Origin: Bacillus pumilus
GTDB taxonomy: Bacteria; Bacillota; Bacilli; Bacillales; Bacillaceae
Reading direction: 5' to 3'
DNA: 64,000 nucleotides
Assembly (NCBI RefSeq): GCF_024498355.1
Contig: NZ_CP101834.1
Coordinates: 1-64,000 of the forward strand
In this document: in pieces, positions 40,551 to 61,902 of the stretch
How positions within the stretch are numbered: the first letter of the stretch is position 1
Layout of the letters: each line of letters opens with the position of its first letter
The notes under the pieces: model-generated
The model's database searches: none
Told to the model about the DNA's origin: nothing
The model's input: the letters and a program-made list of their open reading frames with translations, nothing else
Made by a program: the position numbers and the translations under genes

Positions 40551-40747
40551 TAAGCAGGCTTCAGCCTGCACGCAGTCGTCCGCGCGTAAAGAACGATGGA
40601 GGAACAATGCAGCTGTTGCAGCTGGTGACAACCAGGTGCTTACAGATGTTTGTTATCCCATGGTTTAGCGTGGAGCGAGATACCACGAAATGTTGGCCGG
40701 TGTTTTGTACCGGCTTACAGTTCGTGAGTAGACCCGAAGGGCAGCCC
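40551..40747 (+). ncRNA. structured element module 1, copy A (3' half only)
   Basis: It matches the last ~200 bp of the other seven module-1 copies and lacks the pseudoknot half. It carries informative changes: the terminal helix is CACGAA/TTCGTG where others have CATGAA/TTCATG, a double change that keeps pairing. Confidence 0.7.
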
Positions 40748-40750
40748 TGA

Positions 40751-40780
40751 TTGTCATTTGATTTGCATATCAGTTATAAT
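40751..40780 (+). promoter_or_regulatory. predicted sigma-A promoter in the copy A spacer
   Basis: TTGTCA (40751-40756), an 18-bp spacer and TATAAT (40775-40780). Only this spacer has both a good promoter and a terminator before module 2. Confidence 0.5.
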
Positions 40781-40786
40781 CTTTAC

Positions 40787-40914
40787 AACCCATCAATCCA
40801 TTAAGGATGCATACGCATTCTAACAATGTACAATATGGCTGATCAACTACATGGTCAATCATTGTATAGTATTAAAGAGAGACTTGCCCAAGCATAAGGG
40901 AAGTCTCTTTTTTT
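40787..40914 (+). ncRNA. possible ~128-nt small RNA
   Basis: This is the interval from the predicted start after the TATAAT box to a strong terminator. The terminator stem is AGAGACTT-CCC with GGG-AAGTCTCT (40878-40908), followed by T7. An internal inverted repeat (TACAAT ... ATTGTA) is present. Only an 11-codon ORF lies inside, so a regulatory or antisense RNA is plausible. Confidence 0.4.
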
Positions 40915-40922
40915 ATGTTTAG

Positions 40923-41052
40923 GTGCTGCGATGTGAACGAAGTGAACATGCAGCACAGTCTTTTTTCTTTTGCAGCGTTAGCTGCCGAAGCAGGCTCGAT
41001 GCCTGCGTTTTAATAAAAGGAAAGCTACAGCTTTCCTACCAAGCGTAAGCGC
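40923..41052 (+). ncRNA. structured element module 2, copy A
   Basis: A hairpin series: GTGCTGC/GCAGCAC replaces the GCTATGC/GCATAGC of the other copies (several compensated changes). CAGCGTTAGCTG, GCAGGC/GCCTGC and GGAAAGC/GCTTTCC hairpins follow. Confidence 0.65.
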
Positions 41053-41074
41053 AATTCATTTACTTTTGAGAAAA

Positions 41075-41100
41075 GAAAAAACCGCGTTTATGCGGTTTTA
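41075..41100 (-). terminator. terminator of the first minus-strand operon (bidirectional)
   Basis: AAACCGC, a short loop and GCGGTTT with T-runs on both sides. It overlaps the stop codon of the 53-residue ORF. Confidence 0.75.
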
Positions 41101-41263: not shown

Positions 41264-42808
41264 TCACACTTGCACCAAGTGTGGGTGTTTGTTAAAACTG
41301 TTTATAGCTTTTTTGATCACTTTAGCAATCGCTTTTCCGATCTCAACTGGCACAGCGTTTGCTATTTGTTGTTGCATTGATGACAGGGACCCCTTGAATA
41401 CGAATGAATCTTTTAAACCAAATAGTCTCGCGCATTCCCGTACACTTAAAATGCGATTTTCTATCGGGTGAGTGATTAGACTTTTTCTTGGATTTGCTAT
41501 CGTGATCGATGGCTCATCCATATTAAGTCTTTTATAAACCGAACTATGTGTATTGCCACTCAACATCCTAGCATTTTTCAAATAATCTGGAATAGAAGTC
41601 CAGTTCTCCCCCTGCTTCACATACCGCATTCTTTCAATCGTATCTTCCCTACTCTTTGATATATCTGTTTGATTGGGAACCCAATCATATAGATTTTCAA
41701 ATGCTTCTCGTACTGTTTTATATTTAGAAGTATTGGGTTTCGGAAGTTCGATCGGTCCAATTTTTGAACCAATAAAAATTGCACGTTTTCGTTTTTGTGC
41801 GGAACCCATATCAACGGCATTAATTACTCCATATGAAATGGTGAACTCGGACAATTCTTTTACAATCTCATCTTTAAATTGACCATTCCCTGCCGTTAGG
41901 ATTTCCGGCACGTTTTCTAGGACAAACACCTTACAATGCTTGTTTGCTTTCACTGCTTCAATATATTTTTTTACTAATAAGTTATTTGGATTTTCAAGGA
42001 ATGATGTTTTTCTGTTCGAGCTTGAAAATCCTTGACATGGGCTACCTCCAATCATGATAGGAGCCTTAATGTCATTGAATATTGAGAAGTCAAAGTTTGT
42101 TAGATCGGCTTGCTGAATATGACTCCCCAAATTAGCTTTATACGTTTGAATTGCCTCTGCATCCTTTTCTAACGCCAATTTTACAGTGAACCCTTCTTCA
42201 ACAAAGCCCTGGTCGAAGATCCCAGCACCACTAAATAGACTAATTATCTGTAGTGGTAATTTATGCTGATTGACCAAATTTGTTGTGATAGCGTTGTTTT
42301 CAACGCGATTTGTACCGGCATCCAAGTAGTCGAATATAGAAAATTGCTGGTAGCTGTCTCCGACTACTTGATCCAGTTGCTTTCTTGAAAGCAATACTTC
42401 TAGTCTGTTTTTTTGCTTGAAGACCTTCTTCTCTTTCTTTTTGAAAGAGAAGAAATCCTTGAGCTGACCTAGCTTGTTAGATAATGCTGTTTTTTTTTTG
42501 ATTCCACGAATAAGGATTTGATCATCAAAGATCTCGATTTCTAATTGATCAACACCTGCGAATCCTTGCAAAGCATCCTTTTTACGAATATCAATCACAG
42601 GCTTATAACTTCCGTTATAGGCTCTTTTTGATACGGTGTTTCTAGTTTGTTCCGCAGGCACAATTGTTACTGTATTGCTCTTAGGATCAATGATGTAGTC
42701 AAAGTTTTTACCTACTTCAAATTGTGTTTGAAGTAGTTGGGCATCCTGGATGTAAATGCCTCTTTTGCTGGGTTTCGCTGTTCTCTTTTTAATCAACAAT
42801 CTCATCAC
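41264..42808 (-). CDS. DNA cytosine-C5 methyltransferase with N-terminal extension
   Basis: The methylase domain spans about residues 180-510. Motif I is SLFSGAGIFDQGF, catalytic motif IV is IGGSPCQGFSSSN, motif VI is VLENVPEI, and QQQIANAVPVEIGKAIA closes it. About 170 residues precede it, beta-rich and basic, with no counterpart in stand-alone methylases. They may target the enzyme or be a separate anti-restriction module. No restriction enzyme gene is beside it, so it is an orphan methylase, likely protective. It follows two small genes in a minus-strand operon behind copy B of the repeat. Confidence 0.88.
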   Translation of the reverse strand: MMRLLIKKRTAKPSKRGIYIQDAQLLQTQFEVGKNFDYIIDPKSNTVTIVPAEQTRNTVSKRAYNGSYKPVIDIRKKDALQGFAGVDQLEIEIFDDQILIRGIKKKTALSNKLGQLKDFFSFKKKEKKVFKQKNRLEVLLSRKQLDQVVGDSYQQFSIFDYLDAGTNRVENNAITTNLVNQHKLPLQIISLFSGAGIFDQGFVEEGFTVKLALEKDAEAIQTYKANLGSHIQQADLTNFDFSIFNDIKAPIMIGGSPCQGFSSSNRKTSFLENPNNLLVKKYIEAVKANKHCKVFVLENVPEILTAGNGQFKDEIVKELSEFTISYGVINAVDMGSAQKRKRAIFIGSKIGPIELPKPNTSKYKTVREAFENLYDWVPNQTDISKSREDTIERMRYVKQGENWTSIPDYLKNARMLSGNTHSSVYKRLNMDEPSITIANPRKSLITHPIENRILSVRECARLFGLKDSFVFKGSLSSMQQQIANAVPVEIGKAIAKVIKKAINSFNKHPHLVQV

Positions 42809-43034
42809 GCCCCAGATCCACTGGAATAAGATCAGTTGCGTATGCTTGGATCGTTATTCCCTTTTCTTTGCTGAAAGCCTCATATATGTGAATCTCATCG
42901 TCCAAAATGATTTGTGTAATTTCAAAAACATCACTGCCATTGCTATTCAAGCCTAGCTCTTTTCTTGTAATATCATCTAAGTCAATTTGCACAGCCAGTC
43001 CAATATTAAATTCAAATACCTCGTTCTTATTCAT
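42789..43034 (-). CDS. small hypothetical protein
   Basis: This acidic 81-residue protein overlaps the methylase start by about 20 bp. ATG 43034 is favoured over an ATG two codons earlier because of the spacing from AAAGGAGAAATG. No motif recognised. Confidence 0.5.
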   Translation of the reverse strand: MNKNEVFEFNIGLAVQIDLDDITRKELGLNSNGSDVFEITQIILDDEIHIYEAFSKEKGITIQAYATDLIPVDLGRDEIVD

Positions 43035-43055
43035 TGTCATTTCTCCTTTTGATAA

Positions 43056-43306: not shown

Positions 43307-43903
43307 ACCTCCGAAGGGGTTGGTCCCCATAGGGGATGAATTTTCCCTTTTGACATGTAGAACGGACAACTGAGGATAGACGCATGACAAGAGGGCCGCA
43401 GGCATCGCGGTAGCGACAAGTGCTGATTTGCCTTTAGGTAGCGTAACCGTTGCTTCAGGAATGTTTAGCATAGGCTCTACTGCTAAACATTTCTGAGGCT
43501 TACGAGTTACGACTGATCAGCATTTGCTCTTGTCATGTGGCTTGCCGTCTTATCAAAAAGTGTGGTAAAGAGCCGCAGGCGCAAACTTTGGCACGCTTTT
43601 TGATTAGCCGGCCCCGAATGTTGTACGCTTCGGAGGTCAAAAGGGAAATGTTATTTCAATGGCAGCCGTAGGCTGGCTACCGATGGTTTTAGGAAGCTTC
43701 AGCTTCCGTCAAGCAGGCTCTAGCCTGCACGCAGTCGGCCGCGCGTGAAGAACGATGGAGGAACAATGCAGCTGTTGTCCTGGTGCAGCCAGGGCTTACA
43801 GATGTTTGTTATCCCATGGTTTAGCGTGGAGCGAGATACCATGAAATGTTGGCCGGTGTTGTGTACCGGCTTACAGTTCATGAGTAGACCCACAGGGCAG
43901 CCC
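43307..43903 (+). ncRNA. structured element module 1, copy B
   Basis: A complete ~597-bp copy. Its 19-bp stem at 43452-43470/43481-43499 differs from the other copies at four paired positions, yet every change leaves a Watson-Crick or G.T pair when read on the + strand. Confidence 0.75.
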
Positions 43904-44041
43904 TAAACAGGTTTTAATGAGTTAATGATCATTAATACAGGGGTTCAATCTCAAACTTAAACAGTGATGAGATAAGAAGGATAAGAGCGTGTAAGATGGA
44001 GTAAGAGAGCCACTGGAATCAAGCTGATACAAAATAAAAAA

Positions 44042-44177
44042 GCTATGCGATGACAACGAAGTTGGCAGAGCATAGCAAAGAATTTGTCTTTTGGGCAGCG
44101 TTAGCTGACCCAGCAGGCTCGATGCCTGCGTTTTAATAAAAGGAAAGCTTCAGCTTTCCATCCAAGCGTAGCGCAAT
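44042..44177 (+). ncRNA. structured element module 2, copy B
   Basis: Carries the GCTATGC/GCATAGC stem, CAGCGTTAGCTG, GCAGGC/GCCTGC and GGAAAGC/GCTTTCC hairpins. The spacer before it (43904-44041) shows no promoter or gene. Confidence 0.65.
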
Positions 44178-44209: not shown

Positions 44210-44617
44210 TTAATCTATATCGCAAGGACAAATTAAATCATCTTGTATTACCTTGCCCTTTACAATGTTAACTTTTTGGACGTAATCCGATGGGGTATTT
44301 GCCCGAATTGCAATATCTATATTAAATTGTTTAGAAATGGATTCTAGCAGCTGCGTGTCGATTTCAAACGCTGCGGAAAATTGACATTCTATCACTTGGC
44401 ATTTTTGATGATCCATCGTGATATTATGACATGAAAGATAATGCCTATCAGAATCCACTATAAGATAATCACTATCTGGTGTTAGCATTTCAAACTTCGA
44501 TTTACTGTTTCTAATTTCAATCGAATTTCCCATTGGTATTAAACCATTTAAGAGAAACTGAATCAAATTAGAACGAAACCCACTTAACTGAATATTCCCC
44601 TCTACCCAATCAGCCAT
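44210..44617 (-). CDS. YubB/Api92-like ferredoxin-fold protein, paralogue 1
   Basis: This 135-residue protein begins 'MADWVEGNIQLSGFRSNLIQ', the strand-helix opening of YubB/Api92-like proteins, and ends 'VNIVKGKVIQDDLI'. It is clearly paralogous to the proteins at 44653 and 48444. Relatives are frequent in leading regions of conjugative plasmids, with no known biochemical activity. Confidence 0.55.
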   Translation of the reverse strand: MADWVEGNIQLSGFRSNLIQFLLNGLIPMGNSIEIRNSKSKFEMLTPDSDYLIVDSDRHYLSCHNITMDHQKCQVIECQFSAAFEIDTQLLESISKQFNIDIAIRANTPSDYVQKVNIVKGKVIQDDLICPCDID

Positions 44618-44652
44618 AACATTTGTACCTCTCTCTCGTCAGTAGTCTTTTT

Positions 44653-45072
44653 TTAATCATTATCAACTAATGTGAAAACATCATCTCTTATGATTTGTCC
44701 GTTCTTAATGGAAATGTTCTGTTGGAAGTAATCAACCGTTTCTTCCCCTGAAGCATTTATGTTCAGGTTATATTTTTGAGCGATGTCCAAAAGTTCACTC
44801 GATTGGATTTTCCATTTGCATGTTAATTCCATGCGAACGGTGTAAATGTCATCACGTACTATTTCAAGGGGAATGTCATCACCCCAAGAATGGACTACGA
44901 GACTTGTATCAATCATTAATAATGCTGCCCCTGTATCTTTGAGACATTGATCTTCTTCGTCTAGTGTTGGCGGAACACCATTTGATTCAGTCACTAACCC
45001 TTGAAGAATAAACTTCTTCAAGTTCGTATATTTACCAGTTACAGCGATTCTTCCTTCAACATAATTCGCCAT
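44653..45072 (-). CDS. YubB/Api92-like ferredoxin-fold protein, paralogue 2
   Basis: This 139-residue protein has the same opening (MANYVEGRIAVTGKYTNLKK) and a matching end (ISIKNGQIIRDDV) as its neighbour at 44210. Tandem duplication within one operon is evident. GGAGGAATAG precedes the ATG. Confidence 0.55.
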   Translation of the reverse strand: MANYVEGRIAVTGKYTNLKKFILQGLVTESNGVPPTLDEEDQCLKDTGAALLMIDTSLVVHSWGDDIPLEIVRDDIYTVRMELTCKWKIQSSELLDIAQKYNLNINASGEETVDYFQQNISIKNGQIIRDDVFTLVDND

Positions 45073-45090
45073 GTCTATTCCTCCTTTAGT

Positions 45091-45831
45091 TCAAAAATTG
45101 GTAATATCATCGTCAATCGTTTGTTTCAAATAATCCATCTGTTCCCCCTCTTTACGACCTCTATGATAAGCCTCTACCTCACCAATTGATGGAGTTTTTA
45201 CCGGCTTTGCCTTACCCGAAAAGCCCTTTGCTAGATCATTGTAAGCCCTCGAAACTTCTTTAGGGGTTATGACCATTAAGCCAAACTCTTGTTCCATTTC
45301 TTTAACTTGCTTTTCAAATTTTTCACTCAGTCCAGTTAGAAATCCTAACATATATGAATTTTTAAGTTCTTTTGTTTTCTCTTTCGTTCTAATTACAAAG
45401 GCATCTCTCTGATAATAGTTTTTGACGAATCTTGTGCTGTACTTACTTATAGCATCATAAGCAAGCACGTACATTTCTTTAGCTAAATTCACATCATTTT
45501 CGAAACCAAAGAAAATAATACTACTCTTCCTCCTTTTTTCACCGTTTAAAAATCTATTATGATAGTAGAATTTTACTCTGAAATTATTTGCTATTATTCC
45601 GGCTAATTGTCTTTCCCACCAAAATAATTTTTTATATGCAACAGCCTGTCCTTTAATAATTTCTTGCTTTTCATCTCTAGTTGTTTCTACATCACTCTGC
45701 TGAATATCATGTTTGATCATTAGCTTTTGAGCTAATAAGAAAGCACTTTGGGATTCCTCATCATTTTTTGAGTCATCCGCAATTGCCAGTAAACCTTTTA
45801 TCTTCTTTATAATCGATTCATTTCTGTTCAT
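45091..45831 (-). CDS. DUF2786-like protein
   Basis: This 246-residue protein has an N-terminal motif 'IIKKIKGLLAIADDSKNDEESQSAFLLAQKLM' style opening (residues 6-37) characteristic of DUF2786. A basic alpha/beta region follows (70-220). The ATG at 45831 lies behind AAGGAGGGTG; the longer frame overlaps the previous gene. DUF2786 proteins are common on phages and plasmids; the function is unknown. Confidence 0.65.
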   Translation of the reverse strand: MNRNESIIKKIKGLLAIADDSKNDEESQSAFLLAQKLMIKHDIQQSDVETTRDEKQEIIKGQAVAYKKLFWWERQLAGIIANNFRVKFYYHNRFLNGEKRRKSSIIFFGFENDVNLAKEMYVLAYDAISKYSTRFVKNYYQRDAFVIRTKEKTKELKNSYMLGFLTGLSEKFEKQVKEMEQEFGLMVITPKEVSRAYNDLAKGFSGKAKPVKTPSIGEVEAYHRGRKEGEQMDYLKQTIDDDITNF

Positions 45832-45844
45832 GTTTTCACCCTCC

Positions 45845-46444
45845 TTAGAAAATCTCTTCGAATCTAATACTTTCAATTGCAATGATTTCTTCTATAATTC
45901 TATGTTTTTCATTTTGGAGGAAATTTTGTGGACCTGTATAATCCCAATTGGCTACACATGTGTCTGACAACTGAATCATTATTCTGGTTGCTCGACCTAC
46001 AGCCTCTTTTAAGAATGTTTCTGAATCATAGAAGGGGTTTGTTAGAATTCCTTCGTCATAAGCGTAAATCCAATAATCAAGCAATTCTTCTGCCCATGCT
46101 TTTTTCAACTGCTCTTGCTGATCTTTGTCTTCAGGAATGCACACATTTTCTGAAATGTACAATCCGAGGTCGTAACCTGAAGTAATTTGTTTATCTGTTT
46201 CATTTAAAATTCGTTTGATTTCTCCCTTGCAATACTTATCAAACACGAAAGTGTTAGATTCTGTGACTTGCATCAATTCGTCCTGAATTTCATTAATCAA
46301 TACTGGCAAGGCTTTTGAAGAACAGTATCTTTTTACATTATTTAATACCGCATAACCTGTTATATAAGAACCCTGTTTAATTTGTTCAATTGCTTCAAGG
46401 ACATTTTCTACATCATTTTGTTTTTGTTCGATGTTACTGATCAT
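45845..46444 (-). CDS. hypothetical protein related to the N-terminal domain of the 477-residue protein
   Basis: A 199-residue helical protein. Its C-terminal half ('LKKAWAEEL', 'ILTNPF', 'IIEEIIAIESIRFEE') aligns with residues 45-135 of the fused protein at 58835. ATG 46444 follows AAAGGAGCTAG. The apparent 64-residue extension runs into repeat copy C and is not coding. First gene of the cassette C operon. Confidence 0.55.
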   Translation of the reverse strand: MISNIEQKQNDVENVLEAIEQIKQGSYITGYAVLNNVKRYCSSKALPVLINEIQDELMQVTESNTFVFDKYCKGEIKRILNETDKQITSGYDLGLYISENVCIPEDKDQQEQLKKAWAEELLDYWIYAYDEGILTNPFYDSETFLKEAVGRATRIMIQLSDTCVANWDYTGPQNFLQNEKHRIIEEIIAIESIRFEEIF

Positions 46445-46472: not shown

Positions 46473-47068
46473 ACCTCCGAAGGGGTACGCCCCTTCAGGG
46501 TGAATTTTTCCCTTTTGACAGGTAGAACGGACAACTGAGGATAGACGCATGACAAGAGGGCCGCAGGCATCGCGTTAGCGACAAGTGCTGATTTGCCTTT
46601 AGGTAGCGTAACCGTTGCTTCAGGGATGTTTAGCATAGGCTCTACTGCTAAACATTCCTGGGGCTTACGAGTTACGACTGATCAGCATTTGCTCTTGTCA
46701 TGTGGCTTGCCGTCTTATCAAAAAGTGTGGTAAAGAGCCGGAGGCGCAAACTTTGGCACGCTTTTTGATTAGCCGGCCCCGAATGTTGTACGCTTCGGAG
46801 GTCAAAAGGGAAATGTCACTTTAACGGCAGCCGGAGGCTGGCTACCGATGGTTTTAGGAAGCTTCAGCTTCCGTCAAGCAGGCTCTAGCCTGCACGCAGT
46901 CGGCCGCGCGTGAAGAACGATGGAGGAACAATGCAGCTGTTGTCCTGGTGTAGCCAGGGCTTACAGATGTTTGTTATCCCATGGTTTAGCGTGGAGCGAG
47001 ATACCATGAAATGTTGGCCGGTGTTTTGTACCGGCTTACAGTTCATGAGTAGACCCGCAGGGCAGCCC
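46473..47068 (+). ncRNA. structured element module 1, copy C (reference copy)
   Basis: Two crossing long-range helices close the 5' domain. ACCTCCGAAG (46473) pairs with CTTCGGAGGT (46793), and TTTCCCTTTTGAC (46507) pairs with GTCAAAAGGGAAA (46801), an H-type pseudoknot around ~270 nt. Inside are the 19-bp stem with GTTTAGCA/TGCTAAAC and a ~20-bp stem with ATCAAAAAGTGTG/CACGCTTTTTGAT. The 3' domain holds short hairpins and a final helix, CATGAA/TTCATG around GCCGG/CCGGC. No ribosome site or conserved coding frame was found on the + strand. It may act as RNA or as single-stranded DNA. Confidence 0.75.
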
Positions 47069-47133
47069 GGATCTCGTAGTCAATAAAATGTTTTTAGAAT
47101 ATAATTGTGCTTTATTGAAAGGAGCAATATTTC

Positions 47134-47331
47134 ATGCAAACTGAGCGTATAATCGCTGTTATAAAGAACGATACAGAATTACCATTGAATAAAAGAAGAA
47201 TTCCATTCAAACCTGCTATTATGGTGGACGGTGAAGTAGAGGAAGTACACATGGAAGAGTTATCAGAGCTAGAAAAAGAAAAGTATTTTTCGATTCTCAA
47301 TAAAGTATTAGAACAGAATGGTGCATCATAG
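47134..47331 (+). CDS. small protein encoded in the copy C spacer
   Basis: A 65-residue acidic protein on the + strand, opposite to the cassette operons. GAAAGGAGCAAT precedes the ATG. A possible promoter (TAGTCA, 17 bp, TATAAT at about 47077-47105) lies in the spacer. Module 2 begins 10 bp after its stop, so module 2 would be its 3' untranslated region. Confidence 0.55.
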   Translation: MQTERIIAVIKNDTELPLNKRRIPFKPAIMVDGEVEEVHMEELSELEKEKYFSILNKVLEQNGAS

Positions 47332-47340
47332 TTATAGATC

Positions 47341-47914: not shown

Positions 47915-47927
47915 ACGATCTCCCCTT

Positions 47928-52305: not shown

Positions 52306-55300
52306 TCAGGAGCATTTAGAAAACTTTTGATCTCCCCAGGCAATGTAGGTTTTTCCGTCCTTGTCTTGCTCTTTGGTCAAGAGCATGTCGAGAATGTCAC
52401 CATCAAGCCCAAAACGCTCATTAATTTCTGAGCTATCAAGATCCTCATTCTTCATGAAACAATTTATCTTTTCTTTGCTCATGACCAGCTGTAACATGTT
52501 TGATTCTATGCTGTTTTCAACGGTCAAAAAGTGGATTTCTTTTTGATCCGTTGACGTATAACGGACAAAGCGTCCGAAAAATTGTTGCATGGCTGAGAAA
52601 TTCCACTGCATTTCTAGCAATAGAACACGATTGACAAAATCAATGTTCATGCTGCTTGGAAGGGATTGCTGGGTGCAAATTAAAATACCGTTTTCTGTAT
52701 TCTTTAAATTTTTGACGATCTGTTTTCTTTGTTCAAATGACGCTTTATCTCCTGTGATGACAAACACAGGACGATCAGGAAAATGATCTTTTATATAACT
52801 GGCATATCGGTTTACAGCTTCTACATGAGTGCAACCGATGGCAACTTTATCATGCTGCCATTCTTTCAAAAGGTTAATCGTTTCAATCGCTTTAGACGGC
52901 ATTACGTTTGCGCTATGCTCTTTGAAACTATTAGGAAGGACACAGGCTTTTAAAAGGCTGTTTAATTGGTTGATGATCATTAGCAGTGAATCTTTTCTTG
53001 TGTTCCCTGTGCTTTTATAAAGGTTAGTCATTCTATAAAATTCTTTCATGATGGTGCTATACAGATCCTTTTCGCTTGAATTAAACTGACAAAAATTCTG
53101 TTTTATTTCATAGATCGCCTTTCCTGCTACTTCTTCAAATGTACGTGTAATCATTGACCGATCAATCAAGCTTTTAAGATGATCGCTATTGTATATCGAT
53201 TGATCATGTTTACCGATCCCGAAGACTGTTACTTTTTCAGGTGAAAAGCATTGCTTGAACAAGCGATGCCCTTTTTTATATGCCGGAAAAGGCTTGTTGT
53301 AATGCTTATTTTCTTTTTGTCCAAGCTGTTTGGTCTTTCGGTCCTCTTCGTATAGCGTTTCACACTTACAAAGAAAATTGACCGAATTGTTATACATCAA
53401 TTCAAATGCTGTGAAGGCTTCTGAAACATTGTTTCTTGTGCTGGTGGCACTTAATAAGACTTTATATTTAACGCGTCTGAAGCAATTTAAAACGGCTTTT
53501 GTGCGTTTTGATGAAGGATTAGAAATGTTGTCGGCTTCATCCAGTACAAGCATGACTTTTTGTGATTGTCTCTTGATGTACCGTTTTATAAATCTTTCGT
53601 ACTTTGTCAGCATGTTAAATGTCATGATGACGATTTGTCCTTGTTCAATAGTTTCAATGTCTTTCATGCTTTTGATCTGTTTCACATTGAAACCATAACT
53701 TATCAAGATATCGTGCCAGTTGTTATTAATCGCGATAGCAGGCGCAACGATAAAAACGTTTTTGATGTTGCTGTGTTGTTGCCTGTACATGATTTGCGCT
53801 ATAGCTGAAATGCTCTTTCCTGATCCTGTTCCCCACTGAAGATATGCATGATCTTTCATGAGTAGTTTTCCAGTATCGGTTTTTTGAATGTCATTCAGCT
53901 TAATAACATTTTGATTCTCTGAATCATGAATCTCTAATTGATCCAGAAAGCTTGTTATTTGTTCGGTCGGCTTGATCTCCGTCAATTTCTTTTGTGCTAG
54001 TGTGTACGTTCTCTGTTTCTTCAGGAACAGCTTTAAAAAACGTTTATCCTGAAAAGGATAATAACCATCACGCAGCAAGTCCGAAAAATCCGTGCTTTTT
54101 GTTCCTTTCTGCATATTTAACAGCCGTTTTTCTTTATAACTGTATGCTTTCAGTTTCAAACCGTATCTTGTTTTCACAAGTGCGGTTCTTTTATCCTTGG
54201 GCTTTCCATGTTGTTCTTTTAAGACTCTTTTTAAATAATTCAGTACCTTTTTTTCGGTTAGCTTCTTTTTGTTCCATTCCTCCATGTCCATTTCATGCGG
54301 TTTTGATTGTGTGAAATAGCGTTCCACATATTGCTCACATTTTGCGGCTTTATGGCTAATTGCCGGATGCCTCTTTATATCAAAAAGAAGCTTGTTCACC
54401 TTGTCTAAAAATCCTTTTTTACTTTCGTGAAGTTCCGCAAGCTCAGATCGTATTTTATGCCGGACTTGTTCTTTTTGCTGAAGCGCAGGATGAACAAAAT
54501 TTTCATAGATGAATTGTGAATCTAGCCCTTCTGTGTAATTGATTTCATATGGAACATTTGGAAGGTGTTCACTTTTGTTTTGAAAGATCATTACTTTTGT
54601 TTCATAATGATCAACGCCCATTTGTTTAAAGGCGTTTGTCGGCAAGGCAAGCTGACAAATAAAATTAAATGAATCATTTACTTCATTTATCATGCCAGTG
54701 TAAAAGTCATCATTCAAAAAGCTATTAGGTACAATGAGAGCTAATATGCCCCCTGGCTTCAACAATGTGCTTGCTTTTTGGACGTAAAATAATTGACTTA
54801 AAATTTCATTGCTGTTGACTTTCCACCTTAAATTGAAAGGAGGGTTGCCCACTATGAAATCAAATTTCATGTCTGGACTATAGAAACGTATATCCTCATT
54901 TGAAAGATTAGCGTTAGGGTACAAATGGCGCGCCACTTTAAACGCCTTTATATCAAGCTCATTACCGTACACGTTTTCTTGATTAGGGCAATAGTTGAAG
55001 AAATTACCCATGCCACATGTTAGATCCGCAATTAAATCTTTTTCAGTCGGTTTTAAACACTCCAACAAGAACCTTGAAAGCTCATGAGGCGTAAAGAATT
55101 GACCATTTTCAATTTCCTTTTTTGCTTCTGAATAAAGGTGATAATTTTCGAAGGAAGAAAAGGAAAGACCATGAAGCCCCCCTTCTCCTGTATAAGAGTT
55201 GAAAATGTCCTCCTTTGTGATTTGCATATCCTCGCATTTGTTGTTTTCAATAAGATATAAAATCTTCTCGTTGATTGCTTTTCTTTGTTCAAACGGTATG

Positions 55301-55323
55301 ATTTGACTTATTGTTTTGTACAT
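52306..55323 (-). CDS. DarB-like fusion of N6-type DNA methylase and SF2 helicase
   Basis: This 1005-residue protein has a methylase domain (about 60-270) with GQFFTPHELSRF, the SAM motif DLTCGMGNFF and catalytic VGNPPFNLRW near 158. A basic helical linker follows. An SF2 helicase then shows Walker A QWGTGSGKS near 500, DEAD in VLDEADNIS near 596, motif III SATS near 627 and motif VI FFGRFVRYT near 918. Fused methylase-helicases are known in P1 DarB and other polyvalent antirestriction proteins. No restriction nuclease domain is visible, which favours counter-defence over a type I/III system. It follows the DUF4942-like gene by 17 bp. Confidence 0.75.
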   Translation of the reverse strand: MYKTISQIIPFEQRKAINEKILYLIENNKCEDMQITKEDIFNSYTGEGGLHGLSFSSFENYHLYSEAKKEIENGQFFTPHELSRFLLECLKPTEKDLIADLTCGMGNFFNYCPNQENVYGNELDIKAFKVARHLYPNANLSNEDIRFYSPDMKFDFIVGNPPFNLRWKVNSNEILSQLFYVQKASTLLKPGGILALIVPNSFLNDDFYTGMINEVNDSFNFICQLALPTNAFKQMGVDHYETKVMIFQNKSEHLPNVPYEINYTEGLDSQFIYENFVHPALQQKEQVRHKIRSELAELHESKKGFLDKVNKLLFDIKRHPAISHKAAKCEQYVERYFTQSKPHEMDMEEWNKKKLTEKKVLNYLKRVLKEQHGKPKDKRTALVKTRYGLKLKAYSYKEKRLLNMQKGTKSTDFSDLLRDGYYPFQDKRFLKLFLKKQRTYTLAQKKLTEIKPTEQITSFLDQLEIHDSENQNVIKLNDIQKTDTGKLLMKDHAYLQWGTGSGKSISAIAQIMYRQQHSNIKNVFIVAPAIAINNNWHDILISYGFNVKQIKSMKDIETIEQGQIVIMTFNMLTKYERFIKRYIKRQSQKVMLVLDEADNISNPSSKRTKAVLNCFRRVKYKVLLSATSTRNNVSEAFTAFELMYNNSVNFLCKCETLYEEDRKTKQLGQKENKHYNKPFPAYKKGHRLFKQCFSPEKVTVFGIGKHDQSIYNSDHLKSLIDRSMITRTFEEVAGKAIYEIKQNFCQFNSSEKDLYSTIMKEFYRMTNLYKSTGNTRKDSLLMIINQLNSLLKACVLPNSFKEHSANVMPSKAIETINLLKEWQHDKVAIGCTHVEAVNRYASYIKDHFPDRPVFVITGDKASFEQRKQIVKNLKNTENGILICTQQSLPSSMNIDFVNRVLLLEMQWNFSAMQQFFGRFVRYTSTDQKEIHFLTVENSIESNMLQLVMSKEKINCFMKNEDLDSSEINERFGLDGDILDMLLTKEQDKDGKTYIAWGDQKFSKCS

Positions 55324-55339
55324 TGCCGGATCTCCTTTC

Positions 55340-56134
55340 TTACTTTTTTAGATATGTGTTGGCAAACTCATTTGCAAACTCCATTGAATGAAATTCGATA
55401 GACACTTTGCCATTTTTGAACGCCTTGAAGCTTTTAATTTTATTGAAATTTTCCATTTCATATTTATCAAAAATAGGAGCCTTTCTTGAACCTTCCCGCA
55501 TTTCTTTTTCAATCGATACAAATTTATTAATTTTTGTTGGCTCTCCATTTTCAAACAGTGATAGAGCATCAAATAACTTATCTAATTTTTCTTCACTTCT
55601 ATAATAAATTCTTAAATTTCCGTACCAGTCATCTTCAATGTGTAGATAATTGGGTAAGTGCAAAGTGTGTTTTTTGACTTCAAATTTATATACGGCATCT
55701 TTTATTTTGTTCTTTATTTGCTCGTTTGCCATTTCTGCAAAAGAGTAGCCGCCTAATTGTTCAAATAAATGTTCTAGCACCTCTTCAAACGTGATGAATT
55801 GTTCAAAAGAGTAACTTTTATAAATAAATGAATAATCAAATTCAACATTGTATTTCTTTGAAAAATATTGTGTAATCGCTTCTGTAAATGCATCATTACA
55901 TTCTTGTTGAGCTTTTTCTATTTCATTAACCACGCCATATTTCCGAATATATTTTTCCTTAATCGAATCGACTAACAGTAATGTATTTACACTCTTATAA
56001 GCTTGTTCCAAGGCTTTCCTTGCTACTTTATAAGACTCTTCCTCTTTTAAACAAAATTGTTCATCTTCTTGTGAAATGCGGCTAGTGTTATCAATTGTGA
56101 CTTCTTCAAAACGTTGTAATAGGTTTAGGTTCAT
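55340..56134 (-). CDS. DUF4942-like protein, paralogue 1
   Basis: A 264-residue helical protein ending 'IKSFKAFKNGKVSIEFHSMEF', the closing pattern of DUF4942 domains ('K.FKNGN.H+.F'). In proteobacterial elements DUF4942 is often joined to a methylase; here it directly precedes the methylase-helicase gene, supporting a functional link. The last ~90 bp are almost identical to the paralogue at 57083 while the rest has diverged. Confidence 0.6.
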   Translation of the reverse strand: MNLNLLQRFEEVTIDNTSRISQEDEQFCLKEEESYKVARKALEQAYKSVNTLLLVDSIKEKYIRKYGVVNEIEKAQQECNDAFTEAITQYFSKKYNVEFDYSFIYKSYSFEQFITFEEVLEHLFEQLGGYSFAEMANEQIKNKIKDAVYKFEVKKHTLHLPNYLHIEDDWYGNLRIYYRSEEKLDKLFDALSLFENGEPTKINKFVSIEKEMREGSRKAPIFDKYEMENFNKIKSFKAFKNGKVSIEFHSMEFANEFANTYLKK

Positions 56135-56166: not shown

Positions 56167-56762
56167 GACCTCCGAAGGGCTTTGCCCTTCAGGGTGAATT
56201 TTTCCCTTTTGACAGGTAGAACGGACAACTGAGGATAGACGCATGACAAGAGGGCCGCAGGCATCGCGTTAGCGACAAGTGCTGATTTGCCTTTAGGTAG
56301 CGTAACCGTTGCCTCAGGAATGTTTAGCATAGGCTCTACTGCTAAACATTCCTGGGGCTTACGAGTTACGACTGATCAGCATTTGCTCTTGTCGTGTGGC
56401 TGGCCGTCTTATCAAAAAGTGTGGTAAAGAGCCGCAGGCGCAAACTTTGGCACGCTTTTTGATTAGACGGCCCCGAATGTTGTACGCTTCGGAGGTCAAA
56501 AGGGAAATGTCACTTCAATGGCAGCCGTAGGCTGGCTACCGATGGGTTTAGGAAGCTTCGGCTTCCGTTAAGCAGGCTTTAGCCTGCACGCAGTCGTCCG
56601 CGCGTAAAGAACGATGGAGGAACAATGCAGCTGTTGTCCTGGTGGAACCAGGGCTTACAGATGTTTGTTATCCCATGGTTTAGCGTGGAGCGAGATGCCA
56701 TGAAATGTTGGCCGGTGTCTTGTGCCGGCTTACAATTCATGAGTAGACCCGGAGGGCAGCCC
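56167..56762 (+). ncRNA. structured element module 1, copy F
   Basis: A full copy. GGCCGTC/GACGGCC is fully paired in this copy, where others carry GCCGGCC on the 3' side. The 5' hairpin is GAAGGGC/GCCCTTC. ATGCCATG gives a T.G pair with CATGGT. Confidence 0.75.
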
Positions 56763-56894
56763 GACAAAAGAATTTAGGAGAAGAAAATAAAAAAGCGATA
56801 AGGATCGTGCTGAAGATCATTAGAAAGAATAAAAAGGTCATTGAAGTTCGTACTAATAACAAAAGGTTTCAAAACTGATGGATTCCACTATGCA

Positions 56895-57044
56895 GCTATG
56901 CGATGACAACGTAGTTGGCAGAGCATAGCAAAGATTTTGTCTTTTGGGCAGCGTTAGCTGACCCAGCAGGCTCGATGCCTGCGTTTTAATAAAAGGAAAG
57001 CTTCAGCTTTCCTACCATGCGTAGGCCAGCGATTAGCTGGCCAA
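56895..57044 (+). ncRNA. structured element module 2, copy F
   Basis: The standard hairpin set, ending with GCCAGC/GCTGGC. The spacer 56763-56894 is purine-rich with no gene. Confidence 0.65.
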
Positions 57045-57082: not shown

Positions 57083-57868
57083 TCACTTACTGAGATATGT
57101 GTTAGCAAATTCATTTGCAAACTCCATTGAATGAAATTCGATAGACACTTTGCCATTTTTGAACGCCTTGAAGCTTTTGATTTTTCGAAATATATCAAAG
57201 CTATATTTTTCAAAAATAGCGTGGTGCTTTGAACCTTCTCCCATTTCATATTTAATCTGATTCAAAGCATTTGTTTCGATTGGCGAACCATTTTCAAATA
57301 ACATCAAGGCATCGAATAATTTTTCTAGTTTTCCTTTGCTTTGATAGAAGATTTTAAAAGATTCGAACCATTCTTCAATATAGAGAAAATTTGGTAAGTG
57401 CAACGTGTGTTTTTTTACTTCGAATCTATATACGGATTTTTTTATTTTTTCTTTTATTTGCTCGTTTGCCATTTCAACAAACGTAAAGCCACCTAATTCC
57501 GCGAATAAATGGTCTAACACCTCATCAAGCGTGATTAATTGTTGATATGAGAATTTTTGATCAAGTTTTGAGTAATCAAAATCAACATTGTATTTTTTTG
57601 AAAAATATTGGGTTATTGCTCTAATAAAATTATAACCACAATTTACCTTGGCTTCTTTTATTTTAGAAATCACATCATTTGTATGAATATATCTTTCTTT
57701 AAGCGTTGACCCTGACCACAATTCATTTATGACTTTGTATGCTTTATCTATGGCTTTCCAAGCTTCATCATAAGAGTGTTGCTCATTTAAACAAAATTGT
57801 TCATCCTCTTGTGAAATGCGACTTGTGTGATTAATTTCAACAGTTTCTAATTTTTGTAATAGGTCCAT
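57083..57868 (-). CDS. DUF4942-like protein, paralogue 2
   Basis: This 261-residue protein shares 'SRISQEDEQFCL' at the N-terminus, 'LLDEVLDHLF..LGGFTFVEMANEQIK' style middle and an almost identical end with the protein at 55340. Here it is the only gene of its cassette, without a methylase partner. AAGGAGCAAAAG lies upstream. Confidence 0.6.
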   Translation of the reverse strand: MDLLQKLETVEINHTSRISQEDEQFCLNEQHSYDEAWKAIDKAYKVINELWSGSTLKERYIHTNDVISKIKEAKVNCGYNFIRAITQYFSKKYNVDFDYSKLDQKFSYQQLITLDEVLDHLFAELGGFTFVEMANEQIKEKIKKSVYRFEVKKHTLHLPNFLYIEEWFESFKIFYQSKGKLEKLFDALMLFENGSPIETNALNQIKYEMGEGSKHHAIFEKYSFDIFRKIKSFKAFKNGKVSIEFHSMEFANEFANTYLSK

Positions 57869-57900: not shown

Positions 57901-58499
57901 GACCTCCGAAGGGGTATGCCCCTTCAGGGTGAATTTTTCCCTTTTGACATGTAGAACGGACAACTGAGGATAGACGCATGACAAGAGGGCCGCAGGCATC
58001 GCGTTAGCGACAAGTGCTGATTTGCCTTTAGGTAGCGTAACCGTTGCTTCAGGGATGTTTAGCATAGGCTCTACTGCTAAACATTCCTGGGGCTTACGAG
58101 TTACGACTGATCAGCATTTGCTCTTGTCATGCGGCTGGCCGTCTTATCAAAAAGTGTGGTAAAGAGCCGCAGGCGCAAACTTTGGCACGCTTTTTGATTA
58201 GCCGGCCCCGAATGTTGTACGCTTCGGAGGTCAAAAGGGAAATGTCACTTTAACGGCAGCCGTAGGCTGGCTACCGATGGGTTTAGGAAGCTTCAGCTTC
58301 CGTCAAGCAGGCTCTAGCCTGCACGCAGTCGGCCGCGCGTAAAGAACGATGGAGGAACAATGCAGCTGTTGTCCTGGGTGAAAGCCAGGGCTTACAGATG
58401 TTTGTTATCCCATGGTTTAGCGTGGAGCGAGATACCATGAAATGTTGGCCGGTGTTCTGTACCGGCTTACAGTTCATGAGTAGACCCGGAGGGCAGCCC
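57901..58499 (+). ncRNA. structured element module 1, copy G
   Basis: A full copy, closest to copies C and H. The loop near 58378 is longer (CCTGGGTGAAAGCCAGGGC), a length change confined to a hairpin loop. Confidence 0.75.
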
Positions 58500-58646
58500 T
58501 AAGTAGTTGGAATGCAATTTTTATAGAAGGAATATAAGATGTCTTTTCTAAAACAATGGAATTGCTGTTAGATGGACCTATAAGGCTTTATTACGTCCAT
58601 AGAAGGCATAATGAGGGTGATGTCGTTAAAACTTAGGAGAAGGAAC

Positions 58647-58802
58647 GCTATGCGATGACAACGTAGTTGGCAGAGCATAGCAAAGGTTTTGTCTTTTGGG
58701 CAGCGTTAGCTGACCCAGCAGGCTCGATGCCTGCGTTTCAATCAGAGGAAAGCTTTAGCTTTCCTACCATGCGAACGCCAGCGAAAAGCTGGTGCTTCGC
58801 AA
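58647..58802 (+). ncRNA. structured element module 2, copy G
   Basis: The standard hairpin set. The last hairpin has CCAGC/GCTGG with a GAAAA loop. The spacer 58500-58646 holds only a 10-codon ORF. Confidence 0.65.
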
Positions 58803-58834: not shown

Positions 58835-60268
58835 TTAATATTGGTCTATTAACTTGCCCTTAAAGTTGAACATGATATCAAAGAGTGTCCTCATCTGCAT
58901 ATCTTTGTCAACCACACTACTTTCACTTTCAAGTTCATATTCAACTAGCAGTTCGTCATCTAAAATTATAGTTGACTTGATATATGAATAAATGTCTACT
59001 CCATCAATTGATCCTCCATCACTGACATTCCAAAACCCATCACCATATATCTCCATGACGACCTTTAATCTGTCACTGCTGTCACTGAAATCATCTATTG
59101 AAAAATCGCGAACATCGATAACATGATGAAATGGCGCTTGCATGTATTGATCTAAATGACCATTCACAATTGAGGCTAAAATAAGATAAGAGTGATATTC
59201 TTCAATGTTAAACCCTTTCTCGCTTGTGATTTCAACCGTATCTTTGTCATACAAAGGTAATTCTCTTACATCAAAAATCTTCCCATTCATTTTTTCAAAT
59301 GAATAATGATTGGGACCTTCAATATAAACACATTTGTATGAATCTTGGTCGCGATAATGGAGAAACGCCTTTCGTTCTTTGAATTCTCCCCTATTCAATA
59401 GAATATGAGGAAATGCCCTCAATTCATTATCAGATTCAACCGTCATATGCAAGAAGATTTGACCATCCACAATCAAATTGAAATGATGAAAGGAATCAAC
59501 TTTTACTTGATCAACTTGCCCACCAAAGGATAAATTTCCCTTGCCATAAAATTTCGTTTCAATTTTAGCCCTTTCTTTAAATTCTTCTAGTGACCAATTC
59601 ATAAAATCATATGAATCATTACTTTCTAGGTAATCATTGAAATGCCCATGAGCTATTGAAGCCAAAATTAATAGACGATGATATTCGTTTTCTTTCAGCA
59701 TCAAAGCAGACGCTAATTCAGGATTATACAAAGGTAATTCCTTAATGTTGAATTCATGTCCCTTCTTACTAAACAACGTATATATTCCTTCTCCTGCCTC
59801 ATATACACGTTTAAATGAAGTTTGATCACCAAACTCTAAAAATTCTGATCTGTGAACATATTCTTCATCGATATCCAATTCTTCATGAAAGTTAATGCAC
59901 TCAACCGCACTAATTTCTTTGATCATTTGATCTGCAATATCACCTAGATCAATTGGATTATCCCAATGTTTTTTTGCAATTGGTGATTGACGTAACAGAT
60001 ACGTCATACCAAAGCTAATGGCTTCAAATGCAAATTTTTTAAAATTAGAAAATGGATTTGTATAGATGAATCCGTAAGTGTTCACATGGACAAAGAATAA
60101 ATTCAATTCGTCTTCCCATGCTTTTCGCATGAGCTGAACCTGTTTAACATACAATTGAATATTTTCTGTCGTTTGCAGATTTAGTGTAGACGTATCCATA
60201 TGGATTGACCTTTTCTCTTGTATGACCTCAATCAAGTTTTCTATACAAAATAAAGTAAATGTTTTCAT
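58835..60268 (-). CDS. mosaic three-domain protein of the ILASI-GH family
   Basis: This 477-residue protein joins three parts. Residues 1-24 match the N-terminus of the neighbour at 60336. Residues 45-140 align with the 199-residue protein at 45845 ('MRKAWEDEL', 'IYTNPF', 'ISAVECINFHEE'). Two tandem ILASI-GH domains follow (about 145-300 with ILASIAHGHFNDYL; 305-477 with ILASIVNGHLDQYM). The first resembles the 60336 protein and the second the 48867 protein. AAAAGGAGC precedes the ATG. It looks like the result of recombination between cassettes. Confidence 0.65.
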   Translation of the reverse strand: MKTFTLFCIENLIEVIQEKRSIHMDTSTLNLQTTENIQLYVKQVQLMRKAWEDELNLFFVHVNTYGFIYTNPFSNFKKFAFEAISFGMTYLLRQSPIAKKHWDNPIDLGDIADQMIKEISAVECINFHEELDIDEEYVHRSEFLEFGDQTSFKRVYEAGEGIYTLFSKKGHEFNIKELPLYNPELASALMLKENEYHRLLILASIAHGHFNDYLESNDSYDFMNWSLEEFKERAKIETKFYGKGNLSFGGQVDQVKVDSFHHFNLIVDGQIFLHMTVESDNELRAFPHILLNRGEFKERKAFLHYRDQDSYKCVYIEGPNHYSFEKMNGKIFDVRELPLYDKDTVEITSEKGFNIEEYHSYLILASIVNGHLDQYMQAPFHHVIDVRDFSIDDFSDSSDRLKVVMEIYGDGFWNVSDGGSIDGVDIYSYIKSTIILDDELLVEYELESESSVVDKDMQMRTLFDIMFNFKGKLIDQY

Positions 60269-60335
60269 GGTTTTTTGCTCCTTTTTTCTTTTTTATCTAC
60301 GAAAATTTAACGTCACATTCAGGATCATCTTAAAT

Positions 60336-60884
60336 TTAATTATTTAATAAAATTTTAATAAATGCCCACAATTCATTATTGGTTTCAGCCGTAGAAGTGA
60401 GTATAGTTTGATCGTCCACTATCAATTTAAAATGATGGAATGAATCTACAAGTACATTTTCTATTTCGTTATCAATATAGGATTCAGCTGTCAATGTTCC
60501 TTTACCGTAAAAGTACGTTTCAACCCTTGCTCTTCTTGAAAAATCTTCATTGGTCCAATTTAAATACTCATACGATTTAAAAGGCGTAGCCAGCAAATGA
60601 TCTAAATGCCCATGGGCAATTGAAGCCAAGATTAATAATCGGTGAAATTCGCTTTCCATCAGCCCCAATTTTGAAGCTAGTTCAGAGTTATACAAAGGTA
60701 ATTCCTGAATGAAAATATCTTTTCCTTTGCCAGTAGACAGCGTGTATTTCCCTTCACCACTCTCATATACTCTCTTGATCGACATGTGATCCCCAAACTC
60801 CAAAAACTCTGATCTGTGGATTGAGTTTTTTCCATGAATGACTCCAATCAATTTTTCTTTACAGAACGCAATGAATGTTTTCAA
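60336..60884 (-). CDS. ILASI-GH family protein
   Basis: A 182-residue protein with the domain marks 'HRSEFLEFGD', 'IQELPLYNSEL', 'RLLILASIAHGHLDHLL' and 'VDSFHHFKLIVDDQ', nearest to the middle domain of the 477-residue protein. The TTG at 60884 follows AAAAAGGAGCAAAAC; the ATG at 60905 is upstream of that site. It leads the cassette H operon. Confidence 0.6.
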   Translation of the reverse strand: MKTFIAFCKEKLIGVIHGKNSIHRSEFLEFGDHMSIKRVYESGEGKYTLSTGKGKDIFIQELPLYNSELASKLGLMESEFHRLLILASIAHGHLDHLLATPFKSYEYLNWTNEDFSRRARVETYFYGKGTLTAESYIDNEIENVLVDSFHHFKLIVDDQTILTSTAETNNELWAFIKILLNN

Positions 60885-60909
60885 TTGTTTTGCTCCTTTT
60901 TTCATTTTT

Positions 60910-61508
60910 ACCTCCGAAGGGGTTTGTCCCCTTCAGGGGATTAATTTTCCCTTTTGACAGGTAGAACGGACAACTGAGGATAGACGCATGACAAGAGGGC
61001 CGCAGGCATCGCGGTAGCGACAAGTGCTGATTTGCCTTTAGGTAGCGTAATCGTTGCTTCAGGGATGTTTAGCATAGGCTCTACTGCTAAACATTCCTGG
61101 GGCTTACGAGTTACGACTGATCAGCATTTGCTCTTGTCGTGTGGCTTGCCGTCTTATCAAAAAGTGTGGTAAAGAGCCGCAGGCGCAAACTTTGGCACGC
61201 TTTTTGATTAGCCGGCCCCGAATGTTGTACGCTTCGGAGGTCAAAAGGGAAATGTCACTTTAACGGCAGCCGTAGGCTGGCTACCGATGGGTTTAGGAAG
61301 CTTCAGCTTCCGTCAAGCAGGCTTTAGCCTGCACGCAGTCGTCCGCGCGTAAAGAACGATGGAGGAACAATGCAGCTGTTGTCCTGGGTGAAACCAGGGC
61401 TTACAGATGTTTGTTATCCCATGGTTTAGCGTGGAGCGAGATACCATGAAGTGTTGGCCGGTGTTTTTTACCGGCTTACACTTCATGAGTAGACCCGCAG
61501 GGCAGCCC
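60910..61508 (+). ncRNA. structured element module 1, copy H
   Basis: A full copy. The final helix is CATGAAGTGT/ACACTTCATG, a double change that turns an A.G mismatch into a G-C pair (61445-61487). Confidence 0.75.
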
Positions 61509-61564
61509 AAATATAATTTCTGATGTTATAATAAGGAAAAAGATTCAAAGGAGATCATGAATAC

Positions 61565-61750
61565 ATGTGCGGAAAAGTAATCGGATCAGAAGATCTTTCA
61601 TACATAAACGGATATAAAGATGAAGGAATAGAGACGTTAAAAAAGGAATTAGAAAAACTAATGGATATAAGGTTTAAAAACAAAAGAGTTTACACTGAAG
61701 AAAGTACACTTGCACATAGAGTCAGTGAGCTTGAAGACCGACTCAAATAA
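61565..61750 (+). CDS. small protein encoded in the copy H spacer
   Basis: A 61-residue charged protein with a C-terminal amphipathic helix, on the + strand. AAAGGAGATC precedes the ATG. Module 2 starts 4 bp after its stop, as with the copy C spacer gene, although the two proteins are not alike. Confidence 0.5.
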   Translation: MCGKVIGSEDLSYINGYKDEGIETLKKELEKLMDIRFKNKRVYTEESTLAHRVSELEDRLK

Positions 61751-61754
61751 AAAA

Positions 61755-61902
61755 GCTATGCGATGACAACGAAGTTGGCAGAGCATAGCAAAGGTTTTGT
61801 CTTTTGCAGCGTTAGCTGCCCAAGCAGGCTCGATGCCTGCGTTTCAATAAGAGGAAAGCTTCAGCTTTCCTTCCATGCGAATGCAAGCGAAAAGCTGGTG
61901 GT
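61755..61902 (+). ncRNA. structured element module 2, copy H
   Basis: Hairpin set as in the other copies, with the shorter GCAGCGTTAGCTGC form also seen in copy A. Confidence 0.65.

Follow-up and report, generated by a model that had tools for sequence, protein, structure and literature searches.

What a large structured element is doing when it recurs eight times, always in the same orientation, between operons that differ from one another is the question raised by a conjugative plasmid of Bacillus pumilus (contig NZ_CP101834.1). The stretch analysed here, the window, covers positions 1 to 64,000 of a contig of 85,178 bp, one of two contigs in the genome. The array very probably consists of EGeRS1 elements (establishment gene regulatory sequence type 1), cis-acting control modules of which seven stand directly before establishment (anti-defence) operons on a plasmid with a MobL relaxase. 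As to how such a module acts, it is suggested, at a probability of roughly one in three, that it works as folded single-stranded DNA (ssDNA) of the operons' template strand, by analogy with the Frpo promoters of the F plasmid. EGeRS1 and its site are already known; what is added here is its modularity, a conserved module 2, the covariation of its helices together with the strand on which they fold, and the polarity of transfer in plasmids with MobQ relaxases.

An array of EGeRS1 elements

The repeats, all in one orientation, comprise seven left and eight right halves of module 1 and eight copies of module 2. In operon sense, the right half of module 1 is a 5′ domain and the left half a 3′ domain. 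The left halves are 87-100% identical to the reference copies (n = 7) and the right halves 92-100% identical within a 120-nt family (n = 8); six of the module-2 copies stand at 90-100% and the two outermost at 63-64% in ungapped comparison. When one copy was compared with the whole genome, these eight places were returned together with one short inverse match within a copy. An initial annotation, made from the sequence alone, had described a multi-copy element, large, structured and apparently non-coding, that keeps a single orientation between differing minus-strand operons. This observation is confirmed, including copy A, which was said to lack its left half and for which the profile shows a 5′ domain and module 2 alone, and including the differing cassettes between copies, with the exception of the paralogous pair at 55340-56134 and 57083-57868. 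The interpretation that accompanied it is partly supported.

A protein-coding element is not supported, there being stop codons in every frame: all seven complete copies (586-593 bp) have 7-12 stops in each of the six frames, and the longest stop-free run in them is 71 codons. An insertion sequence or transposon is likewise not supported, given that the element has no open frame and that no transposase family was found by Pfam among the 20 open reading frames (ORFs) of the array that were scanned. The annotation had also brought up the large RNAs GOLLD, ROOL and OLE and the Bacillus-plasmid RNA, and here it was not borne out: there was no match among 4227 Rfam families, neither over the window at gathering thresholds nor, for one copy, up to E = 1.

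EGeRS1 was described from Bacillus conjugative plasmids, where it lies directly upstream of establishment (anti-defence) operons, in copies of 420-751 bp with raised G+C and many inverted repeats (Val-Calvo 2021, PMC8708921). Identity, for which more than 60% is the EGeRS1 threshold, is ~68-80% over the matched parts, two near-identical plasmids excepted. Seven of the eight copies are clustered, lie directly upstream of a ribosome-binding site (RBS) and fall within 400-750 bp, the eighth being a remnant; G+C in the domain alignments (all relatives) is 49-53%, against 31-46% per kb in the window; inverted repeats are evident from the folds and from covariation; and the operons carry EGeRS1-type cargo, a C5 methyltransferase and an N6 methyltransferase-helicase, with which the LPD11 protein is also in keeping. 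Copy c (600 nt) has matches in 46 of 72,556 plasmid records, of which 45 are from Bacillus, and in none of 50,697 phage records. Because the EGeRS1-B region of pLS20, used as the query, has relatives in 64 of the same 72,556 records, and because covariation is strong, the array is not a product of chance. The plasmids pLS20 and pBS72 of the EGeRS1 paper have the same arrangement, and both domains are detected in plasmids from that paper.

Domains and module 2

In the direction of the operon, the unit runs from module 2 through a spacer, a 5′ domain of ~200 nt and a 3′ domain of ~335 nt to the RBS and the operon. This modularity was traced by BLAST and by profile searches in congener loci and on plasmids, the latter being the window, pLS20 and another ten records (several in part). 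The 5′ domain is common to all types and accompanies 45 of 53 alpha or beta 3′ domains, and the 3′ domain is of at least three types. Alpha is found on pLS20, pBS72, pBatNRS213, pBamB1895, pMr12 and pID-A02, and beta in the window, on pONU554, pSHB9, pBgl and pBli and in one pID-A02 copy; the two showed no detectable similarity when compared with each other. Gamma, of B. licheniformis FDAARGOS_923, was distinguished by eye, and in the final 80 nt ahead of the operon it is related to beta (one weak profile match, E 3.9e-7). On pONU554 and pSHB9, the B. pumilus plasmids nearest to that of the window, there are six complete units apiece and a remnant of the same type. A covariance model of the 5′ domain matched 6 of 80 family genomes, all in the genus of the window (5 of 77 genomes of good quality), in a scan whose filters may lose weak matches.

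Along most of its extent the beta 3′ domain (e.g. 46479-46813) matches its own reverse complement, with E of about 1e-38 to 1e-46 in most full copies, and is thus close to a single large imperfect palindrome. On contigs C3 and C4 of congener G029 (L047, L050, L054, L057) there are five gamma-type matches of equal score on both strands, and three of those printed share a downstream gene. A weak 5′-domain match lies on a single-contig genome of 4.3 Mb (L042, G036:C1:662860-663017) and so is probably chromosomal. The sequence GTAAG../..(C)AAC is found repeatedly as an internal loop, both in 5′-domain hairpins and in those of differing 3′ domains (L019:9983 and 13909; L015:18264; window 61479, 50050, 49975 and 40643); it is noted as an observation only, given that the strict pattern has eight sense hits in the window, four of them in elements, and none in L013 or L014. 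The CS-6 sequence of ssoA origins (TAGCGT) was seen by eye in the window copies, not in the printed relatives, and was dropped, and sequestration of the Shine-Dalgarno sequence by a long-range stem is not claimed, as relatives have by eye a further RBS downstream.

Module 2 had been counted by the initial annotation as part of the element, and this is upheld: by profile it lies within about 1.3 kb upstream of all 53 alpha or beta 3′ domains on 11 plasmids, each of these matches being already below E 1e-3 in the first profile search, and all five EGeRS1 of pLS20 have it upstream. Further matches fall at three remnants (window, pONU554 and pSHB9) and before one partial pBli 3′ domain, partial matches also occur at the junction of the two domains, and the profile found none for two gamma copies (L019). 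In its core, short hairpins follow one another (36 rows, taken from nine plasmids, of which one was empty), and one of these hairpins shows a compensatory change, GCAGGC..GCCTGC becoming GCCGG..CCGGC. When this hairpin was looked for in 36 rows chosen from the nine plasmids, 34 had a match and two had none; on the plus strand at least three T stand in the 6 nt after it in 33 of the 34, and on the sense side in 10 of the 34. A second hairpin has its T-rich tail on the sense side. By terminator scan, five window copies have a terminator-like hairpin on the plus strand and four on the sense strand. We read module 2 from this arrangement as a putative back-to-back terminator or insulator. On pLS20, the module 2 of copy B is more than 560 bp upstream and thus beyond the 338 bp of the published constructs, so that the EGeRS1-B reporters did not probe this conserved part. 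In the main text of PMC8708921 (supplements excluded) no mention of module 2 was found and the word "terminator" is absent. The 65-amino acid (aa) frame in the spacer of copy c (47134-47331) has a promoter-like site before it (47077-47105) and module 2 after it, and an annotated plus-strand gene of pLS20 (46614-46844) occupies a comparable place.

Folding strand, transferred strand and mechanism

The helices of the 5′ domain covary. In an alignment of 21 sequences with 43 pairs, paired cells amount to 92.4%, against 84.5% in shuffled controls and 30-43% in slid ones; 17 of the 43 pairs changed on both sides against 11.4 in shuffles, and cells with changes on both sides number 80 against 23.2 ± 4.3. 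The number of pair types in the 5′ domain is not raised (22 against 26.4 in shuffles).

The template strand of the operons, i.e. the antisense strand, is the plus strand of the window, the strand that the initial annotation had read. With RNAalifold it is the better folder in all three domains, with -128.6 against -111.4 for the sense strand in the 5′ domain, -250.6 against -203.9 in beta and -181.0 against -161.9 in alpha, a result repeated with default scoring. The 5′-domain set was reduced from 60 profile rows to 48 sequences (small-locus copies, those with fewer than 180 model positions and two identical ones removed) and the beta set from 33 kept rows to 29 (four antisense hits removed, opposite-strand rows being also cut by the length rule); the alpha set holds 24 of 29 rows, five from small loci being omitted. 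The same pipeline favoured the known functional strand for all three control RNAs from congeners, RNase P, tmRNA and the lysine riboswitch (29, 30 and 28 distinct sequences respectively). Set against dinucleotide shuffles with DNA parameters, the strand difference is positive in all 18 sequences (z 0.7-6.0), which were hand-chosen from 101 (8 of 48, 5 of 29 and 5 of 24) and shuffled 30 times each. Among 1x1 mismatches between Watson-Crick pairs, 11 read as A.C on the sense strand and hence as G.T on the template strand, one reads as G.T on the sense strand and 13 are others, and the asymmetry of 11 to 1 has a binomial probability of about 0.015 when composition is taken roughly and sites are taken as independent. 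Because the 5′ domain is nearly without wobble pairs (one one-sided change in 900 cells) and has a similar G-U share on both strands, it cannot by itself tell the strands apart, and the case for a favoured strand depends on the 3′ domains and the energies. These comparisons suggest that it is the template strand that folds.

In its probable role, EGeRS1 would hold the operons off while the plasmid is established as double-stranded DNA and would permit a transient burst after transfer. In the mechanism preferred here, the template strand, exposed during conjugation, would fold into a structure that starts transcription of the operon, the fold being presumably DNA rather than RNA and recruiting RNA polymerase; once the second strand had been made, the promoter would vanish and the operon would again be silent, and module 2 would insulate each unit from the adjoining one, whichever the direction. 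It is put forward more tentatively that the whole unit (module 2, 5′ and 3′ domain) could be a Gram-positive ssDNA switch that starts anti-defence operons upon conjugation and, just as tentatively, that within this scheme unrelated 3′ domains may have converged on a common strand and a common function. Transient expression behind EGeRS1 is "presumed" in PMC8708921, whose authors state the mechanism as unknown.

Several results weigh against folded ssDNA. With RNA parameters the strand difference has z of -0.7 to 3.3 and is below 2 in 14 of the 18 sequences, most of it being explained by composition, and the choice of strand is partly one of composition. The G-U share on the favoured strand, 5.7-7.4%, is below that of the control functional strands (11.6-13.2%) and no higher than that of their non-functional strands (3.5-7.9%), which may speak for DNA over RNA or for less strand selection; in the 5′ domain the two strands are near equal (5.7 and 5.2%). 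In the Frpo2 region of F itself, with bounds set by us from the gene map and PMC9849209, the strand difference is 7.5 against 3.8 ± 3.4 in shuffles, about one standard deviation in a single sequence. By eye no -35/-10 pair was found in the operon-proximal stem, no systematic search of folded stems having been made, and the promoter-like (sigma-70-like) sites between 42900 and 62200 number 55, against 51.7 ± 6.7 by chance. The strand transferred is a further difficulty. In the EGeRS1 paper, ssDNA promoters are disfavoured on the grounds of element length, the lack of a recognisable promoter and the nicked strand of pLS20 (PMC8708921), the nick having been mapped to the non-template strand of the EGeRS1 operons (PMC5313138; likewise PMC8708921). 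With the nick site located in the sequence here, the transferred strand of pLS20 is again the non-template strand, and the MobL relaxase of the window, ~40% identical to that of pLS20, has the same relative orientation; the window's own oriT would lie at about 11.8-12.05 kb.

The relaxases of relatives were cross-matched (best 40 of 2165 MobQ and best 60 of 603 MobL records, together with the annotated relaxases of the records examined). Among the matches listed, relaxase and operons are opposite in five MobL/MobP2 plasmids (pLS20, the window, CP035233, CP035229 and CP066338) and point the same way in five MobQ plasmids with EGeRS1 (CP060800, CP011023, CP032856, CP035396 and CP066502). In these MobQ plasmids ATAAGTGCGCCAT follows an inverted repeat a short way upstream of the relaxase gene, on the template strand of that gene, and was read with the nic consensus and its polarity. 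Taken by itself the consensus is no commoner than chance (L011 has a single hit with one mismatch, against 1.5 by chance for up to two mismatches, and there is none in L012 and L017, where the parts examined are without a relaxase), and the nic-like motif is counted because of its place, next to an inverted repeat and shortly before mobQ, which is the same in the five plasmids, members of two sequence groups. Since relaxase and operons are codirectional and the motif is on the template strand, the transferred strand of the MobQ plasmids would be the template strand of the operons; these five plasmids would then escape the strand objection to an ssDNA promoter, and the strand argument of the EGeRS1 paper does not apply in general. 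The MobQ and the MobL groups cannot follow one transferred-strand rule if the polarities of both are right, and this conflict lowers the ssDNA-promoter model and raises the RNA models. By the inferred polarities, moreover, the EGeRS1 arrays are not the first part to enter.

A structured RNA could instead be made from the plus strand, antisense to each operon, running from the operon start through both domains to termination in module 2; being near identical in all copies, it could repress all operons in trans and, being absent at entry, would let them fire until it had accumulated. This proposal is held to be rather unlikely and is ranked second, behind ssDNA-dependent expression. It has the better-folding strand on its side, and in module 2 the hairpin that precedes the plus-strand T-rich tail is G+C-rich, although module 2 may only serve small plus-strand genes in some spacers. 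Such an RNA would be independent of the transferred strand and would fit MobQ and MobL plasmids alike. In reverse orientation EGeRS1-B allowed moderate to high read-through, but in plasmid-free B. subtilis its reporters had no promoter activity in either orientation (PMC8708921); by eye there is small room for a conserved promoter between element and operon, and the G-U share is half that of the control RNAs.

Ranked third, and less probable again, is a sense 5′ leader of the operon mRNA that acts as a terminator or attenuator and is bypassed by antitermination in the recipient, possibly via module 2, which the published EGeRS1-B constructs left out. EGeRS1-B stops read-through in its native direction only, for which its 3′ 215 bp suffice (PMC8708921), and ConAn1/conAn2 antitermination operates in the conjugation operon of pLS20 plasmids (PMC8955417); several relatives have by eye a hairpin and T-run at the domain junction. 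A sense leader would, however, use the worse-folding strand in all three domains, with a G-U share of 0.5-2.2% in the 3′ domains, and no promoter was identified for it. What remains is left to recombination or to mechanisms not listed. That the folded elements are mainly recombination or single-strand replication-start sites for cassette exchange is quite improbable: same-orientation copies, near-identical within a plasmid, do flank variable cassettes, the cassette content of pONU554 and pSHB9 differs (gene tables, unaligned) and there are remnant copies without an operon, but all seven complete window copies abut an operon start, exchange needs no dedicated site, being accounted for by homologous recombination of the near-identical copies, and Pfam found no recombinase family in the 20 scanned ORFs of the array, although outside the array the window does have a resolvase (25151-25768).

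Operons and comparison with known systems

The left part of the window holds plus-strand conjugation genes, among them those for a VirD4-type coupling protein, a lysozyme/NlpC protein, the MobL relaxase, a topoisomerase and a single-stranded DNA-binding protein. In a PADLOC comparison of ten array proteins, the C5 methyltransferase and the N6 methylase-helicase clearly match methylase/helicase components of defence systems, a third protein is marginal (E 5.7e-4) and seven have no match; a methylase/helicase cargo fits a putative role in protecting incoming DNA. The paralogous cassettes behind copies f and g are neighbours, 76% and 85% identical over two stretches, and the one behind copy g is without the methylase-helicase partner of its paralogue. 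On a plasmid of B. licheniformis SRCM103529 (L014), a methylase/helicase cassette occurs twice (22910-25937 and 38869-40375), annotated in several pieces. The features are collected in Table 1.

Table 1. Features of the array and its context. Positions follow the plus-strand numbering of the window, domain boundaries are profile-search coordinates, and array features are read as minus strand (operon sense).
Feature	Position	Strand	Domains or content	Basis
EGeRS1 copy h	60916-61508	-	3′ domain 60916-61252, 5′ domain 61311-61508	repeat comparison, genome search, profile
Module 2 of copy h	61753-61888	-	tandem hairpins	repeat comparison, profile
Operon behind copy h	58835-60905	-	477 aa and 189 aa, no Pfam family	
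EGeRS1 copy g	57908-58499	-	3′ domain 57908-58242, 5′ domain 58301-58499	
Module 2 of copy g	58645-58782	-		profile
Operon behind copy g	57083-57868	-	261 aa, paralogue of 55340-56134	
EGeRS1 copy f	56177-56762	-	3′ domain 56177-56507, 5′ domain 56566-56762	
Module 2 of copy f	56893-57030	-	terminator-like, both strands	profile, terminator scan
Operon behind copy f	52306-56134	-	264 aa protein and 1005 aa N6 methylase-DEAD helicase fusion	
EGeRS1 copy e	51412-52000	-	3′ domain 51412-51745, 5′ domain 51804-52000	
Module 2 of copy e	52143-52277	-	terminator-like, both strands	profile, terminator scan
Operon behind copy e	50597-51375	-	176 aa and LPD11 protein (82 aa)	
EGeRS1 copy d	49490-50079	-	3′ domain 49490-49824, 5′ domain 49883-50079	
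Module 2 of copy d	50222-50359	-	terminator-like on plus strand	profile, terminator scan
Operon behind copy d	47525-49457	-	four small proteins, no Pfam family above cut-off	
EGeRS1 copy c	46479-47068	-	3′ domain 46479-46813, 5′ domain 46872-47068; reference copy for searches	
Open frame in spacer of copy c	47134-47331	+	65 aa; may or may not belong to the unit	RBS-like sequence
Module 2 of copy c	47340-47476	-	terminator-like, both strands	profile, terminator scan
Operon behind copy c	44210-46444	-	includes DUF2786/DUF7168 protein; first gene start taken as 46444	
EGeRS1 copy b	43313-43903	-	3′ domain 43313-43648, 5′ domain 43707-43903	
Module 2 of copy b	44040-44174	-	terminator-like, both strands	profile, terminator scan
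Operon behind copy b	41264-43040	-	includes C5 cytosine methyltransferase	
Remnant copy A	40550-40747	-	5′ domain alone; no 3′ domain, no minus-strand operon behind	
Module 2 of remnant copy A	40922-41051	-		profile
MobL relaxase of the plasmid	12307-13479	+	context, not part of the element	

The likeness to GOLLD, ROOL, OLE and the Bacillus-plasmid RNA that the initial annotation saw lies in size and dense helices; EGeRS1 differs from them in lacking an Rfam match and in being placed as an operon leader. EGeRS2, of the p576 type, has the same role before establishment genes of related plasmids but consists of a short promoter controlled by a repressor protein (about 140 bp in the case of p576 ardC), whereas EGeRS1 is large, structured and promoterless in reporters (PMC8708921). 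With the EGeRS1 of pLS20 and pBS72 the window shares the site before the RBS, the types of cargo and the clustering of copies on a conjugative Bacillus plasmid, its 5′ domain being ~73-75% identical to that of pLS20 and its 3′ domain ~73-74% to that of pBgl. It differs from pLS20 in having eight copies and a 3′ domain of the pBgl/pBli type, and it has the conserved module 2, of which no mention was found in the published description of EGeRS1 (PMC8708921).

Comparison of EGeRS1 with the Frpo/ssi regions of F and ColIb-P9 indicates two differences, a -10/-35 stem that was not found by eye in EGeRS1 and a transferred-strand polarity that fits the MobQ plasmids and not pLS20. The likenesses are that the Frpo/ssi regions are repeated, G+C-rich, structured and several hundred nt long, and lie before establishment operons (PMC9849209, PMC11541004), that the template strand folds better (for Frpo2 weakly), and that EGeRS1-B has no promoter activity as double-stranded DNA in reporters. 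The Frpo2 region of F is also comparable in size, with two copies of 458 nt at 89% identity, and has its strand bias in the same direction. With a strand suggested to fold, five MobQ plasmids to which the strand objection would not extend and a conserved module 2 beyond the published EGeRS1-B reporters, the way in which Gram-positive plasmids express anti-defence genes only in the new host has become directly testable.

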